DNA from: Hypomyces perniciosus
Lineage: Eukaryota > Ascomycota > Sordariomycetes > Hypocreales > Hypocreaceae
Direction: 5' to 3'
Assembly: GCA_008477525.1 (NCBI GenBank)
Contig: SPDT01000004.1
Coordinates: forward strand, 620,001-684,000
Length of the DNA: 64,000 nucleotides
Shown: one piece after another, positions 27,240-33,552 of the stretch
Position numbering within the stretch: position 1 is the stretch's first letter
Layout: each line of letters begins with the position of its first letter
Position numbers and translations under genes: made by a program
Notes under the pieces: model-generated
Seen by the model: the letters and a program-made list of their open reading frames with translations, nothing else
What the model was told of the DNA's origin: nothing
The model's database searches: none

Positions 27240-30200
27240 TCACTGGTCAAGCAGAATCTGGCCTGGTTTTTTAACCCTATCTGCGATGACCTGTCTTGCT
27301 GTCTTGGCCCCCGCTTCCGCTAGCATAGAAGCAATTTGTATCTCTTTGGCCTTGCGCGCCATGTCCAGCGGCGTAGTGCTCTGGTCCGACATCGGGTTGA
27401 GGTCAGCACCAGCCGAAAGCAGCATGCGAACGCAGGCGAGGTGGCCATTATGCGCGGCCCAGTGCAGTGGCGTCCAGCCATAATCCGTCGTGATGCTCGG
27501 GTCCACGCCGCATTCCAGCAAAAACTGGACCTCAGCAAGATGGCCGCCAGCCGCGGCCCAATACAAGCGCGTCACACCTTTTGGTCCCTTGACATTGGGG
27601 TTGGCACCTGCTCGTCGGAGGATCTTGAGCACTAGAGCAGACAACAGAATGTTAGTGGATATCTTCAACAGCCCCTTGCACGCAACCTATTTTCTTCACT
27701 CACCTGCCTCGTGCTCTTTATCAAGACAAGAATACCATGGCGTAAACCCCGAGTCATCACGCAGGTCAACCTCTGGCTTCTCCTTAAGCAACATGTGCAG
27801 TATCTCGACTGCGTTCCGCTTAGCCGCTCGATGTAACGGCGTGCAGTTTTCCAGGCCGCGCATATTTACGTTGGCACCAGCTTGCAAAAACTCTTTAACC
27901 ACTGGGGCGTGATTCAACTCAATGGCAAGGAAGAACGCTGTAGTGTTGAACATGGTCTCTTCCTTCAGGTCAATTCTGCCTTCTGAAAGCAGCTTTGTGA
28001 TTGCTTTAAGATCTCCAGACTCCACGGCTGAGAGCAATTGCAAATGGTCCTTGTGCCTAACCAGGGTAGATTTGCCTGCATTTGCAACAAGGGGAGATGT
28101 GGTTGTTTCTTCTTTCTTAGTGTTGGATCCAGGTTCCTGCTTCAGGAACAATAGATACGGCATAAGAAGGAAACCGAAGATGAAACCCAGGTACACGAGG
28201 ACAACTTGGCCGATTTCCCAATTTTTTTGATAGACTCTGAAATGTGTCAGTGGATGCAGTCCGTCAGAGATTATTGTTTGAACGAGGTCTCGTCTATTTC
28301 CCTGAGCCACATGCAACAGTAAGCTATGACCTTCTTTCGATAGTAGATCGATGACTGCCTCGTGTTTCAGGAGAATGCTAACAATATCCCAATGGCCTTG
28401 GGATACTGCCATGGTGAGTGGAGACTGGTCGTATGCGTCTAGGGTATTGATATCAAGTCTCATTTCCTTGATCTTGACAAATCTGGCAATAATGGGGGCC
28501 CAGCCGAGGAAAGACGCTACATGCATAGCTGTAATTTGTTTTTGCATCGGTGAAAACTTTAGGACGCTTCCTGGGAGTTCGGAAACACATTTGTAATCGT
28601 AAGAATCAAAATCTCTTTTGAAGAACCGCACATTACTGTGGGCATAGGTAAGTTGCATAATGCTGCTATCATGCATGAGTCGAATCAAGAAGTTTCTCTT
28701 CGGACGCTCTTGTAGTAGAACCATTAAAGATTGGAGAATATCATCTTGCAGGGATTCATCTGGCAATTGACGAAGGTGGTGTCCAAGGAAACGCGCCGCG
28801 TAGTGAAGAAACGGAAACTCGTCACATTTGTCATGGTATGTTAGTCGTTCTTTCTGACCGGTTTTAACCACCTTGGGATGGATCTGGCCCGTACCTAGAT
28901 GCTCCTGAATATGAACAAGGTCATCTGCGTAGGACATTTGATTTTCTTCATCGTCAGGTTGTTCAAGAACTTGGAAAGATAGGTATGTGATGCAGGCTTT
29001 GGCGATGGTGGACTTGAACCCAGGGAACCGACGGTCGCTAATGCCATTGAAGTAGCTCTGGGCTGTGTAGTGCACTAGTGAGACAACATCTTTCACCACA
29101 GTAACTAATCCGCCACAGAAATCCTGAATATCATCTGGCAAATGGATATTTGTGGGATCGAAATCTGGACTTCCTGGTTTGATTGCAAGGGCGTGTTGTA
29201 GCTCTCTCATCTTGAGTTGGCGACAGCTGAAGACAATCCACGACAAAGTTTTCAGTGCGAGTTCCTTCTTTTCGGAATCTGCCTCTTCGATCCTTTGCAG
29301 TATTTGGTCGTACGTATGGTCGATCTGGGTAGGCAACTCCCTGAGTCTTTCCCTGACTGCCGACAAAGTGAGAGCCGAGGCCAGAGACTTCATATGGAGA
29401 CTAGCGAGGAGAAACCTGAATTATCAGTATCACTGCGCCCTTACTGACCATTGGAGACTGCTGCTCACATGCCATCACATCTATCCCTCACAGAAGATTT
29501 GACGTCATCATGTAGCTTCGGGTCGATTTCTGAGAATTTCTTTAGACGATGATGAGAATTGAATTCATGGTCGATAAAGAGCTCGATGTCTTGATTATCC
29601 GCTTTGATTTCCCCTTTATGGAAATCCCTGGATATTTCATCAAAATCATTCAGCTGTCTTGATGTCACAAGAATGCTAATATTCCCTGTCTGGGGCTGAA
29701 TAGCGTTCATCAAACGAAGTCTAATGTCAGGGGAGCATTCATCTAATGCGTCAACAACGATGAATGTTTGTCGCTCCTTGGTTAGCTCCCCGAGTAACTC
29801 TGATAGGTCTCGCAAAGTGGCAGGTTCATCCCCTCGGTTACAACACTTCCACAGCTTGGTGAGTGGTGAAGGCAAGTCTGAGGCATCCGATATGAGCTGC
29901 TTGATGACGCTGCCTACAAGTTGTTCAGCCGTACGCGATTCCTTGTAGCTCAAATACAAGTACGCGACTCGTTGGCTTGTGTCATCTGCCTTGAGTGTAC
30001 CCTGGAGCTCTAGGAGGTGGGTGATGATGGTGGAGCTGGAGTCCAAATTAGTAGTGTCAGTAGCCCATGCATCGGGAGGCGTACGCCAGAACGGTTTTCC
30101 CAGCGCCAGCTAGATGTATTTCAAAAGTGGATATTAGCCTCTTGTCCATCATATGCGCTGTCTAAGTTGGTGTAACTTCAAGATGGCAGTAATGGTATAC

Positions 30201-30580
30201 TTACGCATTCCCAAGTACCACAGCCTTTGGATCTTACGGCAGAGCCAATCACCGAAGACATTGGACTCCAGGAGCCATCTCCCAGCATAATATTCGTTGT
30301 GAGGACTGCCCAATGTGTTAGGAAGTCGTGCCTCGGCTCGGATGTGCTCATGGGTGTGACGGAAGCCAATGCGCGAAAGCCATCGTAAAATATCGCTTCT
30401 AGGTTCATCGGAGCCGGAGCCCTTCATTATGTAAGTGTTGCCATTGTGGACTTTGGCGTGGCCATCTATTTTCTGAGGCCCAAATAAAAATGTTGTAGTC
30501 GGAGACCTAGAGACAATGGGAGAATTGTCATGAGCTGGCCACTCGATTGGACTCGGTTTAGTGTGATCGACTCTTTCCAT
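27240..30580 (-). CDS. NOD-like receptor: amyloid motif - NACHT - ankyrin repeats
   Basis: Five exons (30205-30580, 30085-30109, 29469-30035, 27704-29415, 27240-27631) give 1023 residues. Exon 2 is only 25 nt and completes the Walker A motif GMPGAGKT (124-131). Walker B is FIVVDALDEC. Residues 37-53 hold IDGHAKVHNGNTYIMKG, a HET-s-related amyloid motif (HRAM) nearly identical to the second repeat of the HeLo protein encoded next door. The C-terminal half carries ankyrin repeats (for example NCTPLHRAAKRNAVEILHML and YGWTPLHWAAHNGHLACVRM) as the likely ligand sensor. By analogy with NWD2/HET-S, ligand binding would oligomerise the NACHT, nucleate the amyloid fold and convert the effector. A hydrophobic helix (VVLVYLGFIFGFLLMPYLLF) interrupts the ankyrin region, which is unusual for a soluble receptor. 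It is divergent from its effector gene across 571 bp. Confidence 0.9.
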
Positions 30581-31151
30581 GACGGTATCGGGGCACGATA
30601 AGCTATTGAGGGTTCGTTTGATATTTTTGAGTAGTATTACTAGGCATAGCGTCTAAAGCCGAGCCGCTTAGCTAGTAGATCGATCGTTTTGGTGAATTGT
30701 GTAGAATAGTATGGTGAGGAGTGGAGAGGAAGTGGAGAGGAAATAGGCTATGCTCGGCCTAGGCGATGATCATTTCAACTCCATCTCAGCCTCAGATCCC
30801 GGTCTAACATCTCTGAGCTTAACTTCACCTACCCCGCTCCACTCAGCCTCACCCCTCTCAACCCCGCTTATCCACTATTCTCACCTACTACTACCCGTTA
30901 GTGTATACTTTCGGGAACACCAAACGTCCTTTTTAGTTTGGTGTTCACAAAGTACCACTCCAACGGGTATCTACTTCATACCTAAGGTACTTCGTGATGA
31001 CCAAGTACGGAATATCAGACCTCCTTAACAATACCTACCTAATCGTATTAGATACCCGTTATTACTCTGCTTTACGAAATATCAGTGCCTCTTGGTATAG
31101 CAATCAGCCTAAATCTCAGCTACCTATACTACTTCCTCCTCGGATTTTATA
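30581..31151. promoter_or_regulatory. Shared divergent promoter of the NLR and HET-S-like effector genes
   Basis: 571 bp between the two start codons on opposite strands. No coding sequence was seen. An inverted pair CACCAAACGTCC..GGTGTT lies near 30920-30950. Head-to-head placement would allow co-regulation of receptor and effector. Confidence 0.6.
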
Positions 31152-32030
31152 ATGGCTGAAGCATTTGGTATTGTCTCTGGCGCTGTCGGAATCGCCTCCA
31201 TCTTCAGTACCTGTGTGCAATGCTTCGACTATATCCAGGTCGGTCGCCGCTTTGGCAAGGACTTCCAAACCAACATCTTGACCCTGAATCTGCTTCGCCT
31301 GCGGCTCACGCGATGGGGCAAGGCTGTCGGCATCTATAACGATCCTCAACTCGGCAATCCAACTGCCAGCGCGGCCGACATTTCGCTGGCTAAAGACGTT
31401 ATGTACCAGATCCTGGTTCTGTTTGCGGATTCTAGGAAGTTCTCCCTCAAGTATGACCTGCAAGCCCTACCCGAGGACTCATCGGCCCTTTCAAGTGCTG
31501 GTATGGAGGCAGAGCTGTCGACCTTGAACAACAAGATGCGCGAGCTCGCTGCTCAGCGCCAAAGCAAAACCAACATACTCAAGATAACAAGCTGGGCGCT
31601 TCACGACAAAGAACGCTTCTCGAAGCTTATTGAGAGCATCGCAAAGCTACTCGACGAGCTAGAGAAACTCTTCCCTGCGCCGGAAAAGGCGACAACGCTG
31701 GTGGAGGAAGAGCTCAACCAAATCGGCGATGGACAGACAAGTAAGACTGCTACTTTAAAACTTTTACACGATTTAGCCACGGGAATCGACGGTGTCATGA
31801 AGGCCAAGACTGCAGATATGATATCAATGCGGGGTACGTCCTTTGGACAGATAATGGTCAACGACAATGCGCGCGTCAGGAATGGAGATGTTATCACTTC
31901 TGCTTGGAAAGGAGAAAAGGTTCTACCAACAGGAAGTGGTAACATGAATGTTGTTGTTATTGAGACTGGCGGGAATGCTAGAGTTCACAATGGGAATACC
32001 TACACTGATGTGGATGACTTTTGGGACTAG
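31152..32030 (+). CDS. HET-S-like cell-death effector: HeLo domain plus HRAM amyloid repeats
   Basis: An intronless 292-residue protein, close to the 289 residues of Podospora HET-S/HET-s. The N-terminus (FGIVSGAVGIASIFSTC) matches the HeLo-domain start that becomes membrane-inserting on activation. HeLo landmarks continue through FDYIQVGRRFGKD, LTRWGKAVGI and ELEKLFPAPEKA to about residue 220. The C-terminus carries two pseudo-repeats, NDNARVRNGDVI (237-248) and GGNARVHNGNTY (273-284), ending DDFWD; together they have the layout of the HET-s beta-solenoid prion-forming domain. Residue 33, which separates the toxic (H) and non-toxic (P) Podospora alleles, is arginine, so allele behaviour cannot be read. 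Known for the family: templated amyloid conversion frees the HeLo domain to permeabilise the plasma membrane. Inferred partner: the adjacent NLR. Confidence 0.93.
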   Translation: MAEAFGIVSGAVGIASIFSTCVQCFDYIQVGRRFGKDFQTNILTLNLLRLRLTRWGKAVGIYNDPQLGNPTASAADISLAKDVMYQILVLFADSRKFSLKYDLQALPEDSSALSSAGMEAELSTLNNKMRELAAQRQSKTNILKITSWALHDKERFSKLIESIAKLLDELEKLFPAPEKATTLVEEELNQIGDGQTSKTATLKLLHDLATGIDGVMKAKTADMISMRGTSFGQIMVNDNARVRNGDVITSAWKGEKVLPTGSGNMNVVVIETGGNARVHNGNTYTDVDDFWD

Positions 32031-32223: not shown

Positions 32224-33552
32224 CTAATTTGATGCCATCTCCGCCCCCTTGGCCTTTTCTACCTCCCAAAACTTCCTATACCTCTCTACAGCACCTCGAC
32301 CGTGCTCTTCTCGAACACGTAGAAGCCATTCCTCGTCAGGTTCTAGTAGCCGGTGGCAGTCAAGCTCTGTACCGCCATGGAGCAGAATCTTGACAATACC
32401 CCAGAAGCCTCTGATGACAGCCGCGTTCAACGCACTGCCGTACTTCCCGCCTCGCGCGCCGATATGGGCTCCTTTGTCCAGCAGTGGCATTACCGATTCC
32501 GTCTGGCCAGAGTAAGCCGCCGCCTGCAAAGCTGAGCCGAATACTCCACCGTGTGCGTTAACGTTGATGTCAGGACATTTTTCAAGAAGGAGCTTTGTCA
32601 AGCCAGTGCCGTAATTTGTTTCTCTGTGAAGCGGATTATGCTCTATCGCACACGCCGTCTGGAGCGCGAAGCCATACTTCCCGACCGCGAGATTGACATC
32701 AGCGCCGCGCTCGAGCAGGAAGAGGATTATATCAGAGTATTTCGAAAGCCAGTTATAGTCATCTGACCACCAGAGATGGGAGGATGTCGACAATGACAAC
32801 ACTTGCTCCAGCTCAGCATTCAAGGCAGTATTATATATGCCATCTTGTTCACGCAAATGGTTAACAGTGGCGCCGTGGTTCAGCAGCAACTCTAGCAGGG
32901 CATTGGAGGAGGAGGATGAACGAGCGGCCCCATGCCAGGCGTCATCAACTTGCAGGCGGACATTGGCGCCTCGTTCGAGCAACAAGTGCACCACCTCTAT
33001 TTTTCCCCCTGCACAGGCGGCTTGGAGTGCTGTTCCATGTAGCCCGCCTTGATCGTTAATATCGGCGCCATTGTCGAGAAGCAGTCGTACCATGTCTAGT
33101 TCACTAAAGCGGGCAGCACACACTGCTTGGAGGGCGTTACCAGAGTGCCCTCCTTGTGCATTCACATCAGCACCGCTTTTCAGTAGCAACTCGACGATCG
33201 CCGTGGATTTATTTGTCATGGATGCGGCCTGCAATGCAGTTCCGTAGTAACCTCCTGCAATATTGATATCGACATCTGCGCCACTATCAATTAGAAGATT
33301 TACAATCTTGACCCTTGTTTCGATTTGCTTATCGCTGATAATCCACGCAGCGCACACAGCCTGTAGTGCAGTGCCATGACTCGCACCCTGAGCGTTGGGG
33401 TCTGCGCCGAGGTCTAGCAGGCGCTTGATATGTTGAAGGCTGGCCTCCCTCTGGTCTGCCCCTGTACAGGCTGCCTGAAGTGGAGAGCCGAATTTCCCAC
33501 CCTGCTCAGTCTTCTGGGTCCACGCTGACAACGAGGCGACATTTGCACAAGA
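32224..33552 (-). pseudogene. Orphan ankyrin-repeat array without a start codon
   Basis: An open frame of about 440 codons encodes many ankyrin repeats of the fungal NLR-sensor style, each with a GGxxGxALQAA signature (for example GGYYGTALQAASMTNKSTAI and GGLHGTALQAACAGGKIEVV), ending EWLLRVREEHGRGAVERYRK and then an acidic tail. The frame opens after a TAG at 33553-33555 and contains no ATG before the first repeat; the first usable ATG would delete several repeats. The TTGTAG there could be a splice acceptor, but no NACHT or other exon lies in the 240 bp before the next gene. I read it as the detached 3' end of a NACHT-ankyrin gene, a possible source of new sensor repeats. Alternative: an expressed ankyrin protein with an unrecognised first exon. 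Confidence 0.6.

Follow-up and report, generated by a model that had tools for sequence, protein, structure and literature searches.

A HeLo effector gene and a divergent NACHT-ankyrin receptor gene in Hypomyces perniciosus as a probable amyloid-signalling pair of the NWD2/HET-S type

In Podospora anserina, NWD2 and HET-S (motif class HRAM1) are encoded by adjacent divergent genes, the NLR bearing a single amyloid motif and the effector two, according to the passages on this pair in PMC3321046 and PMC4344463; the former also mentions in these passages that gene orientation differs between species. For HELLF/FNT1 (HRAM5), the corresponding parts of PMC7889193 describe an NLR that adjoins its effector, and a HELLF motif that does not cross-seed with HET-s. 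The het-eN/sesA/sesB system of Nectria haematococca comprises an ankyrin NACHT protein and neighbouring effectors with a common motif (passages of PMC3321046 and PMC5485727). The HRAM families 1-5 are characterised, in the text of PMC4518210 on their signatures, by paired 21-residue repeats with hydrophobic residues at positions 5, 8, 10 and 16, R or K at 15, G at 19 and an aromatic tail, and by a spacer of 6 to 18 residues in nearly all cases.

We analysed a stretch of 64,000 nucleotides from Hypomyces perniciosus (contig SPDT01000004.1, positions 620,001 to 684,000), referred to here as the window. A HeLo gene and an NLR gene were both present and divergently transcribed (Table 1), and the pair proposed by an earlier sequence-only reading was borne out by open reading frames, gene model and Pfam. 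The two genes are adjacent, with 571 bp between their start codons. Both reading frames are open, and the P-loop of the NLR (GMPGAGKT) is intact, being restored jointly by introns 1 and 2 of the gene model. The locus is, with a probability of roughly 0.87, a two-gene cell-death unit of the NWD2/HET-S type that signals through amyloid, because of its motifs, the match of its profile to HET-s, the fold suggested by AlphaFold2 and Foldseek, and the linkage of the two genes on the same contig in five species.

Table 1. Positions in the window of the two genes and their parts
Feature	Position	Strand	Details and basis
HeLo (HET-S-like) effector gene	31152..32030	+	single exon, 292 aa; ORF and Pfam PF14479
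HeLo domain, residues 6-193	31167..31730	+	Pfam
Amyloid repeat r1, effector residues 227-247	31830..31892	+	21-mer, HRAM numbering; AF2 strands
Amyloid repeat r2, effector residues 263-283	31938..32000	+	21-mer, HRAM numbering; AF2 strands
Intergenic region common to both genes	30581..31151	.	571 bp, start codon to start codon
NLR gene	27240-30580	-	five predicted exons, 1023 aa
NLR exon 1: r0 motif, linker, NACHT start	30205..30580	-	gene model
Amyloid motif r0, NLR residues 29-49	30434..30496	-	21-mer, HRAM numbering; similar position in relatives
NLR exon 2: part of P-loop	30085..30109	-	25 bp; gene model
NLR exon 3: remainder of NACHT	29469..30035	-	gene model, Pfam
NLR exon 4: winged-helix region, ankyrin block 1, hydrophobic helix, part of ankyrin block 2	27704..29415	-	
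Transmembrane-like helix amid ankyrin blocks, residues 712-747	28143..28250	-	hydrophobicity, conservation
Hydrophobic core of the helix, residues 727-745	28149-28205	-	
NLR exon 5: end of ankyrin block 2 and C-terminus	27240..27631	-	gene model, Pfam

The effector has an N-terminal HeLo domain, matched by PF14479 with 165.9 bits (E 1.3e-48, cut-off 23.2) and by the HeLo crystal structures 2wvn/2wvo at about 1e-45, and its C-terminus consists of two 21-residue HET-s-like repeats in one register. A profile built from this protein and 14 relatives matched the solved HET-s prion domain across both repeats (E 4.4e-4). The Pfam model HET-s_218-289 (PF11558) gave 14.2 bits for the whole effector and 18.9 bits for the fragment, below its cut-off of 32.2, with 58.6 bits for the positive control P0243, and the window effector was not among the seven matches of a genome scan with this model; in the part of PMC4518210 concerned, just 38 of 155 doubled-motif proteins exceeded the PF11558 signature. 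AlphaFold2 predicted a two-rung beta structure for the fragment 222-292, with strands at fragment residues 7-15 and 20-23 for r1 and 43-51 and 56-59 for r2, and the pLDDT of the five models ranged from 76 down to 47. In Foldseek, the best two PDB matches of the predicted tail were the HET-s amyloid and then the HELLF amyloid 6eka; since the scores were weak (E 1.8 and 2.0, TM about 0.3), it is their rank alone that supports a HET-s-like fold.

The NLR contains NPHP3_N (E 1.1e-28) and ankyrin (E 4.4e-64) domains in Pfam and presents the arrangement of an amyloid-signalling NLR, i.e. a single N-terminal motif (r0, weak by profile), NACHT and ankyrin repeats. The motif strings on which the earlier proposal was built, NARVRNGDV and NARVHNGNTY in the effector and AKVHNGNTY at NLR residues 42-50, were found as stated, the last being identical to the second repeat at 8 of 9 positions. 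Among 100,000 shuffles, the observed similarity was reached by 2 for r0/r2, 11 for r0/r1 and 121 for r1/r2. When compared with the 60,189 six-frame 21-mers of the window, r0 and r1 each had the two partner motifs as best non-self matches; the best match of r2 was r0, and one unrelated 21-mer ranked above r1. A profile made only from r1 and r2 of the relatives was run against 121 real NLRs and 605 shuffled decoys. The best eight real NLRs were all family members, with their matches in the N-terminal motif, and the top score among 108 control NLRs was 1.1 bits; 5 of the 13 family NLRs had no match at the motif, and the window r0 scored 2.4 bits, with 3 of the 605 decoys higher (best 4.0). As a ranking this test favours the family motif; for the window r0 itself, which did not rise above decoys, it is not significant. 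In a Pfam scan of the NLR with E values up to 1, no single-motif HET-s model came up. The r0-r1 match averaged over pairs was 28.6 within and 25.6 between species (five species, the Penicillium griseofulvum pair coming from two assemblies), and co-evolution of the two was dropped as a claim, this difference being too weak.

Both close partners were located on one contig in 5/5 named species with both listed, and we infer gene adjacency there from the equal length of the contigs that carry them. The nearest named HeLo relatives of the effector are presumably Xylariales. The protein P0160 is a HeLo-NACHT fusion model and probably a natural receptor-effector fusion; the model is partial and could be two merged genes instead, and in BLAST its 90-residue HeLo piece matches best to P0018, outside the window's group. 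The functional unit that had been claimed is well supported, by the HeLo domain, the doubled tail, r0 on the NLR, the five-species linkage and this fusion model. The earlier interpretation as a whole is partly supported; for its coupled promoter, the 571-bp intergenic region common to both genes is the one observation in favour. The same genome bears a second HeLo/NACHT pair, of HRAM1 type. Trichoglossum hirsutum and Orbilia ellipsospora, with a HeLo match outside the window group and a generic NACHT-ankyrin match on contigs that differ in length, were not counted as pairs. Two further HeLo matches in the same genome as the window, within longer open frames (C22, C23), were set aside as partners, resembling kinase-type proteins by eye, without a domain scan, and tankyrase and most other ankyrin matches were rejected as relatives on account of generic ankyrin similarity.

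The repeats r1 and r2 fit the HRAM core, r2 with T at position 10, which is permitted in the superfamily according to the relevant text of PMC4518210, and r0 fits it except for Q at position 8. All three have N at position 18, where a hydrophobic residue is general, not invariant, and HRAM4 has Q (same source and text). At position 3 they carry T, M and F. These atypical residues, together with the weak cross-species signal between r0 and r1, would suit a decayed or rewired pair, in which HeLo protein and NLR descend from such a unit, their motifs have lost the ability to cross-seed, and the two genes act separately or not at all. We consider such decay improbable: Q8 is present in 10 of 12 aligned NLR relatives, and position 18 of the relatives' r1/r2 is mostly D or N, not hydrophobic, so that the atypical residues are mostly family traits, and the open frames, the intact P-loop and the linkage kept in five species also argue against it. 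Less credible still is a chance or generic resemblance, i.e. a HeLo gene that merely lies beside an ankyrin NLR with an ARVHNG-like N-terminal string. The common string is short, a loose HRAM pattern written for this analysis had 17 six-frame matches in the window (three being r0, r1 and r2), and the window r0 scores weakly with the r1/r2 profile; against this stand the shuffle tests, the ranking of best matches, the N-terminal position of the motif in relatives, the same-contig pairing and the structural match.

The reading of the hydrophobic stretch between the ankyrin blocks is more finely balanced. In the part of the protein that follows the NACHT region, 10/13 NLR family proteins versus 5/104 controls had a peak reaching KD 1.8, which favours a membrane helix; this comparison is a narrowing of a looser one (KD 1.6, more of the protein), in which 11/13 family proteins and 29/108 controls had peaks, those of the controls largely in winged-helix or ankyrin stretches. 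There is a serious chance, just short of even, that the stretch is not embedded in a membrane and is either a buried linker helix or the product of an unrecognised intron. Such a reading is favoured by the control peaks at KD 1.6, the low AlphaFold2 confidence across the region (block means about 41-65), the charge inside the helix in several relatives and the lack of the helix in P0124, P0130 and P0134. The intron variant is opposed by retention of the stretch in other species' gene models and by the splice signals: the G at +5 shared by all four accepted NLR introns is absent from each of 14 GT-AG intervals (45-150 nt) removing the whole core, and none of the 8 in-frame intervals spanning the core has a branch-point match. 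A stretch outside the membrane is compatible with the HET-S/NLR unit. Among the openly accessible journal articles listed by literature searches, we recognised none that treats membrane-spanning helices of NLRs from fungi; PMC9815663 does not contain the word "transmembrane" (0 occurrences), and the consulted portions of the fungal NLR literature describe sensors without membrane segments.

If the locus works as an amyloid-signalling unit on the Podospora paradigm, ligand recognition by the ankyrin region would lead the NLR to oligomerise, the amyloid fold on the NLR side would template the r1-r2 tail of the effector, and the HeLo domain would insert in the plasma membrane and cause cell death. 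A conserved membrane-like helix within the recognition domain, if true, would alter both the place and the object of sensing by such receptors; it would account for the passage of the amyloid signal to an effector that targets membranes, with amyloid seeded where the HeLo protein must insert. A broader proposal, possible although the odds are against it, is that the NLR clade is anchored by this helix, which would span or enter a membrane, and seeds amyloid there, that its motif forms a sixth HRAM class insulated from the HRAM1 pathway beside it in the same cell, and that evolution has combined one anchored sensor body with r0, with HeLo in cis or with Goodbye in cis. With its two pairs of differing motif class, this genome is a ready system to probe insulation of amyloid pathways, and the probable natural fusion offers a way to learn what a motif loses once receptor and effector join in one protein.

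Compared with NWD2/HET-S, whose gene layout and motif numbers it shares, the locus has ankyrin repeats instead of WD40, r0 at residues 29-49 instead of 3-23, a motif outside the HRAM1 signature and a transmembrane-like helix in the NLR. HELLF is likewise encoded next to its NLR, and its amyloid is the second structural match noted above; it differs in its HeLo-like domain and HRAM5 motif (PMC7889193, same passages). The ankyrin NACHT protein and neighbouring effectors of het-eN/sesA/sesB resemble our pair, with the difference, in the same passages, of a sigma motif and other effector domains. The features of the HRAM families listed at the outset recur here, with a spacer of 15 residues, and the differences lie at positions 3 and 18, in the lack of Q at 16 or 18, and in Q8 of r0. 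The class signatures given in that text (N3, Q3, H3, Q18 and Q16 for HRAM1-HRAM5) were not seen in 16 r1 and 16 r2 repeats, as tallied by the five commonest residues at each position (one of the 16 being outside the tally at r1 position 16), and position 3 in most relatives is hydrophobic or T, not N, Q or H. Judged by its residues against the wording of these signatures, the window motif conforms to none of the five. In the midpoint-rooted tree (17 rows, 100/99), the Goodbye-NACHT-ANK NLRs P0171, P0211 and P0238 grouped with the window NLR clade, and their sequences carry the hydrophobic helix at the corresponding alignment position; in them, a Goodbye domain in cis replaces r0 (in P0238 slightly below the Pfam cut-off). 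This motif outside the HRAM1-5 signatures, the second, HRAM1-type pair and the transmembrane-like helix go beyond the sequence-only reading. An HRAM motif joined with ankyrin is not singled out in the passages that deal with amyloid-motif NLRs of the ankyrin type. The design of the unit is known and ankyrin NLRs with amyloid motifs have been described previously; the divergent tag and the NLR helix are the features of this version.

The window is positions 620001-684000 of contig C16, in an assembly of 44 Mb in 23 contigs, and its gene content is fungal. The two genes are transcribed divergently. The NLR open frames are connected by four GT-AG introns, all predicted, whose donors are GTAAGT, GTACGC, GTGAGC and GTGAGT; a 25-bp exon separates introns 1 and 2, which together restore the P-loop. 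In domain searches the product matched NPHP3_N/NACHT and ankyrin models; the matches listed at E up to 1 included neither WD40 nor HeLo nor a single HET-s-motif model. The scanned stretch of the ankyrin-repeat frame beyond the HeLo gene gave no NACHT match.

Coordinates of the genes, motifs and further loci
Feature	Location	Strand	Description
HeLo gene	window 31152-32030	+	single exon, 292 aa
NLR gene	window 27240-30580	-	divergent to HeLo gene; predicted product 1023 aa
r1	HeLo residues 227-247		amyloid-type repeat
r2	HeLo residues 263-283		amyloid-type repeat
r0	NLR residues 29-49		corresponding motif
Ankyrin-repeat open frame	window 32224-33552	-	tail to tail, directly downstream of HeLo gene
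C8 unit (L008)	contig C8 2499000-2508900		second HeLo/NLR pair
L011	contig C4 6406564-6406742		HET-s-like remnant interrupted by stop codons
L012	contig C22 near 3634096		NACHT-type protein (by eye), HRAM-like N-terminal stretch
L013	contig C4 near 5919004		NB-ARC-type-looking protein (by eye), HRAM-like stretch near N-terminus
L014	contig C22 near 2633605		NACHT-type protein (by eye), HRAM-like N-terminal stretch

The sequence-only reading had described a HeLo/NLR pair sharing an amyloid motif, and this pair is real. The pair scores were reached by only 11 (r0/r1), 2 (r0/r2) and 121 (r1/r2) of 100,000 shuffles. Numbered as by Daskalov et al. 2015 (PMC4518210, available passages), all three motifs have G19, R/K15 and V16, and positions 5 and 10 are hydrophobic or T; r0 has Q at position 8. 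The spacer between r1 and r2 is 15 residues long and the HeLo tail ends in FWD. The description of the motifs as HRAM-type agrees with these residues apart from Q8 of r0, but not with position 18, which is N in all three and is generally hydrophobic in published HRAM motifs, according to the same passages. The profile searches gave less: the HeLo protein scored under the cut-off of PF11558 (Pfam HET-s_218-289), the window was not among the matches of a genome scan with this model, and r0 scored only 2.4 bits against a profile of the relatives' r1 and r2, with 3 of 605 decoys higher.

The residues of 16 HeLo proteins were tallied. Position 3 was mostly hydrophobic in r1 (I14 L1 T1) and r2 (I8 V3 M2 L2 K1), and position 18 was D9 N4 S2 T1 and N12 A2 I1 T1, respectively. 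The 105 other HeLo matches listed have H at position 3 in 100 (r1) and 96 (r2) cases, which is the HRAM3 signature in the available text of PMC4518210. Mean motif identity was 0.56 (r1) and 0.48 (r2) within the window's group, versus 0.21 and 0.16 between this group and the other listed matches. Judged by the signatures in the published text, the window motif is outside HRAM1-HRAM5, and it may represent a sixth HRAM class or an unassigned branch.

Among the best 120 of 195 matches, the HeLo relatives P0003-P0017 (48-57% identity) span 12 named species, from Xylariaceae and Hypoxylon kin, Dichotomopilus, Neopestalotiopsis, Aspergillus and Penicillium. NLR relatives bearing r0 (best 120 of 1,769 matches) come partly from the same species and partly from others. 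Both partners were among the listed matches in five named species: Hypoxylon trugodes (HeLo P0007, NLR P0123), Hypomontagnella monticulosa (P0006, P0124), Aspergillus avenaceus (P0010, P0127), Xylariaceae sp. FL1651 (P0003, P0129) and Penicillium coprophilum (P0017, P0248). In 5/5 of them the partners' contigs were of identical size, suggesting that the two genes share a contig. For 6 of the seven other named species no clade NLR was among the listed matches; in P. griseofulvum the two proteins came from records with differently sized contigs, perhaps of different isolates. In the NLR gene models of FL1651 and P. coprophilum r0 is absent, and misprediction of the N-terminus is the probable cause.

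A candidate HeLo-NACHT fusion, P0160 from Lindgomyces ingoldianus, is a partial gene model in which the final third of a HeLo domain (5.9e-13) is followed by a degraded motif-like stretch (by eye) and then NACHT. Its NACHT falls inside the NLR clade (14 rows, 100/99). The HeLo piece, of 90 residues only, is in an 18-row fork with the window's group (91/81); its best BLAST match is P0018, outside this group. P0160 may be a merged gene model.

We also noticed a membrane-like helix in the NLR, whose most hydrophobic 19-mer (residues 727-745, KD 2.38) lies between two ankyrin blocks. KD 1.8 was reached at the same place in 13/15 proteins of the NLR alignment A2; P0124 and P0134 were under this value, and P0130, outside A2, was also without this stretch. 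As controls we used NACHT-ankyrin proteins from the same search as the family, and scored the part downstream of the NACHT region. KD 1.8 was reached in 10/13 family members versus 5/104 controls (Fisher 8e-9, which overstates the difference because family members are akin), and KD 2.0 in 7/13 versus 1/104; a looser first cut gave 11/13 versus 29/108. Three Goodbye-NACHT-ANK proteins, P0171, P0211 and P0238 (Trichoderma, Diaporthe, Fusarium), selected for having the stretch and excluded from the control count, have their hydrophobic helix where the alignment places that of the window's NLR; in the midpoint-rooted tree they fall with the NLR clade. The later-found P0248 and P0247 share it (KD 2.56 and 2.46). 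AF2 gave a single 36-residue helix at low confidence (residues 712-747), flanked by confident ankyrin blocks. No interval excising the whole hydrophobic core had a donor resembling those of the accepted introns. A description of such a helix was not recognised in the literature listings and passages searched.

By analogy with known systems, the pair most likely works as the unit proposed earlier, of the NWD2/HET-S type with an ankyrin sensor; the coupled promoter attributed to it is a guess. The available text of PMC4518210 reports an adjacent motif-bearing NLR at 98/155 HeLo-related genes, and the novelty here is that of a variant, in motif class and in the hydrophobic helix of the sensor.

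Apart from the C8 unit, the genome holds the loci L012-L014 with HRAM-like stretches (Table); the HeLo match closest to L014 is ~97 kb away. BLOSUM motif scores were 25-33 within the window unit and 15-54 within the C8 unit; between the units they were -4 to 23, so that the ranges overlap; the accessible part of PMC7889193 describes one species with three such pathways lacking cross-seeding. In the C8 unit, the HeLo protein P0243 (58.6 bits against PF11558) is encoded divergently to the NACHT NLR P0244. By their residues, its motifs carry the HRAM1 signature, N at position 3 (3/3 motifs), and the DNA downstream of the P0244 NACHT resembles WD40-like repeats by eye. With an HRAM1-type HeLo gene, a divergent NACHT gene and these repeats, the C8 unit is a close analogue of het-S/nwd2.
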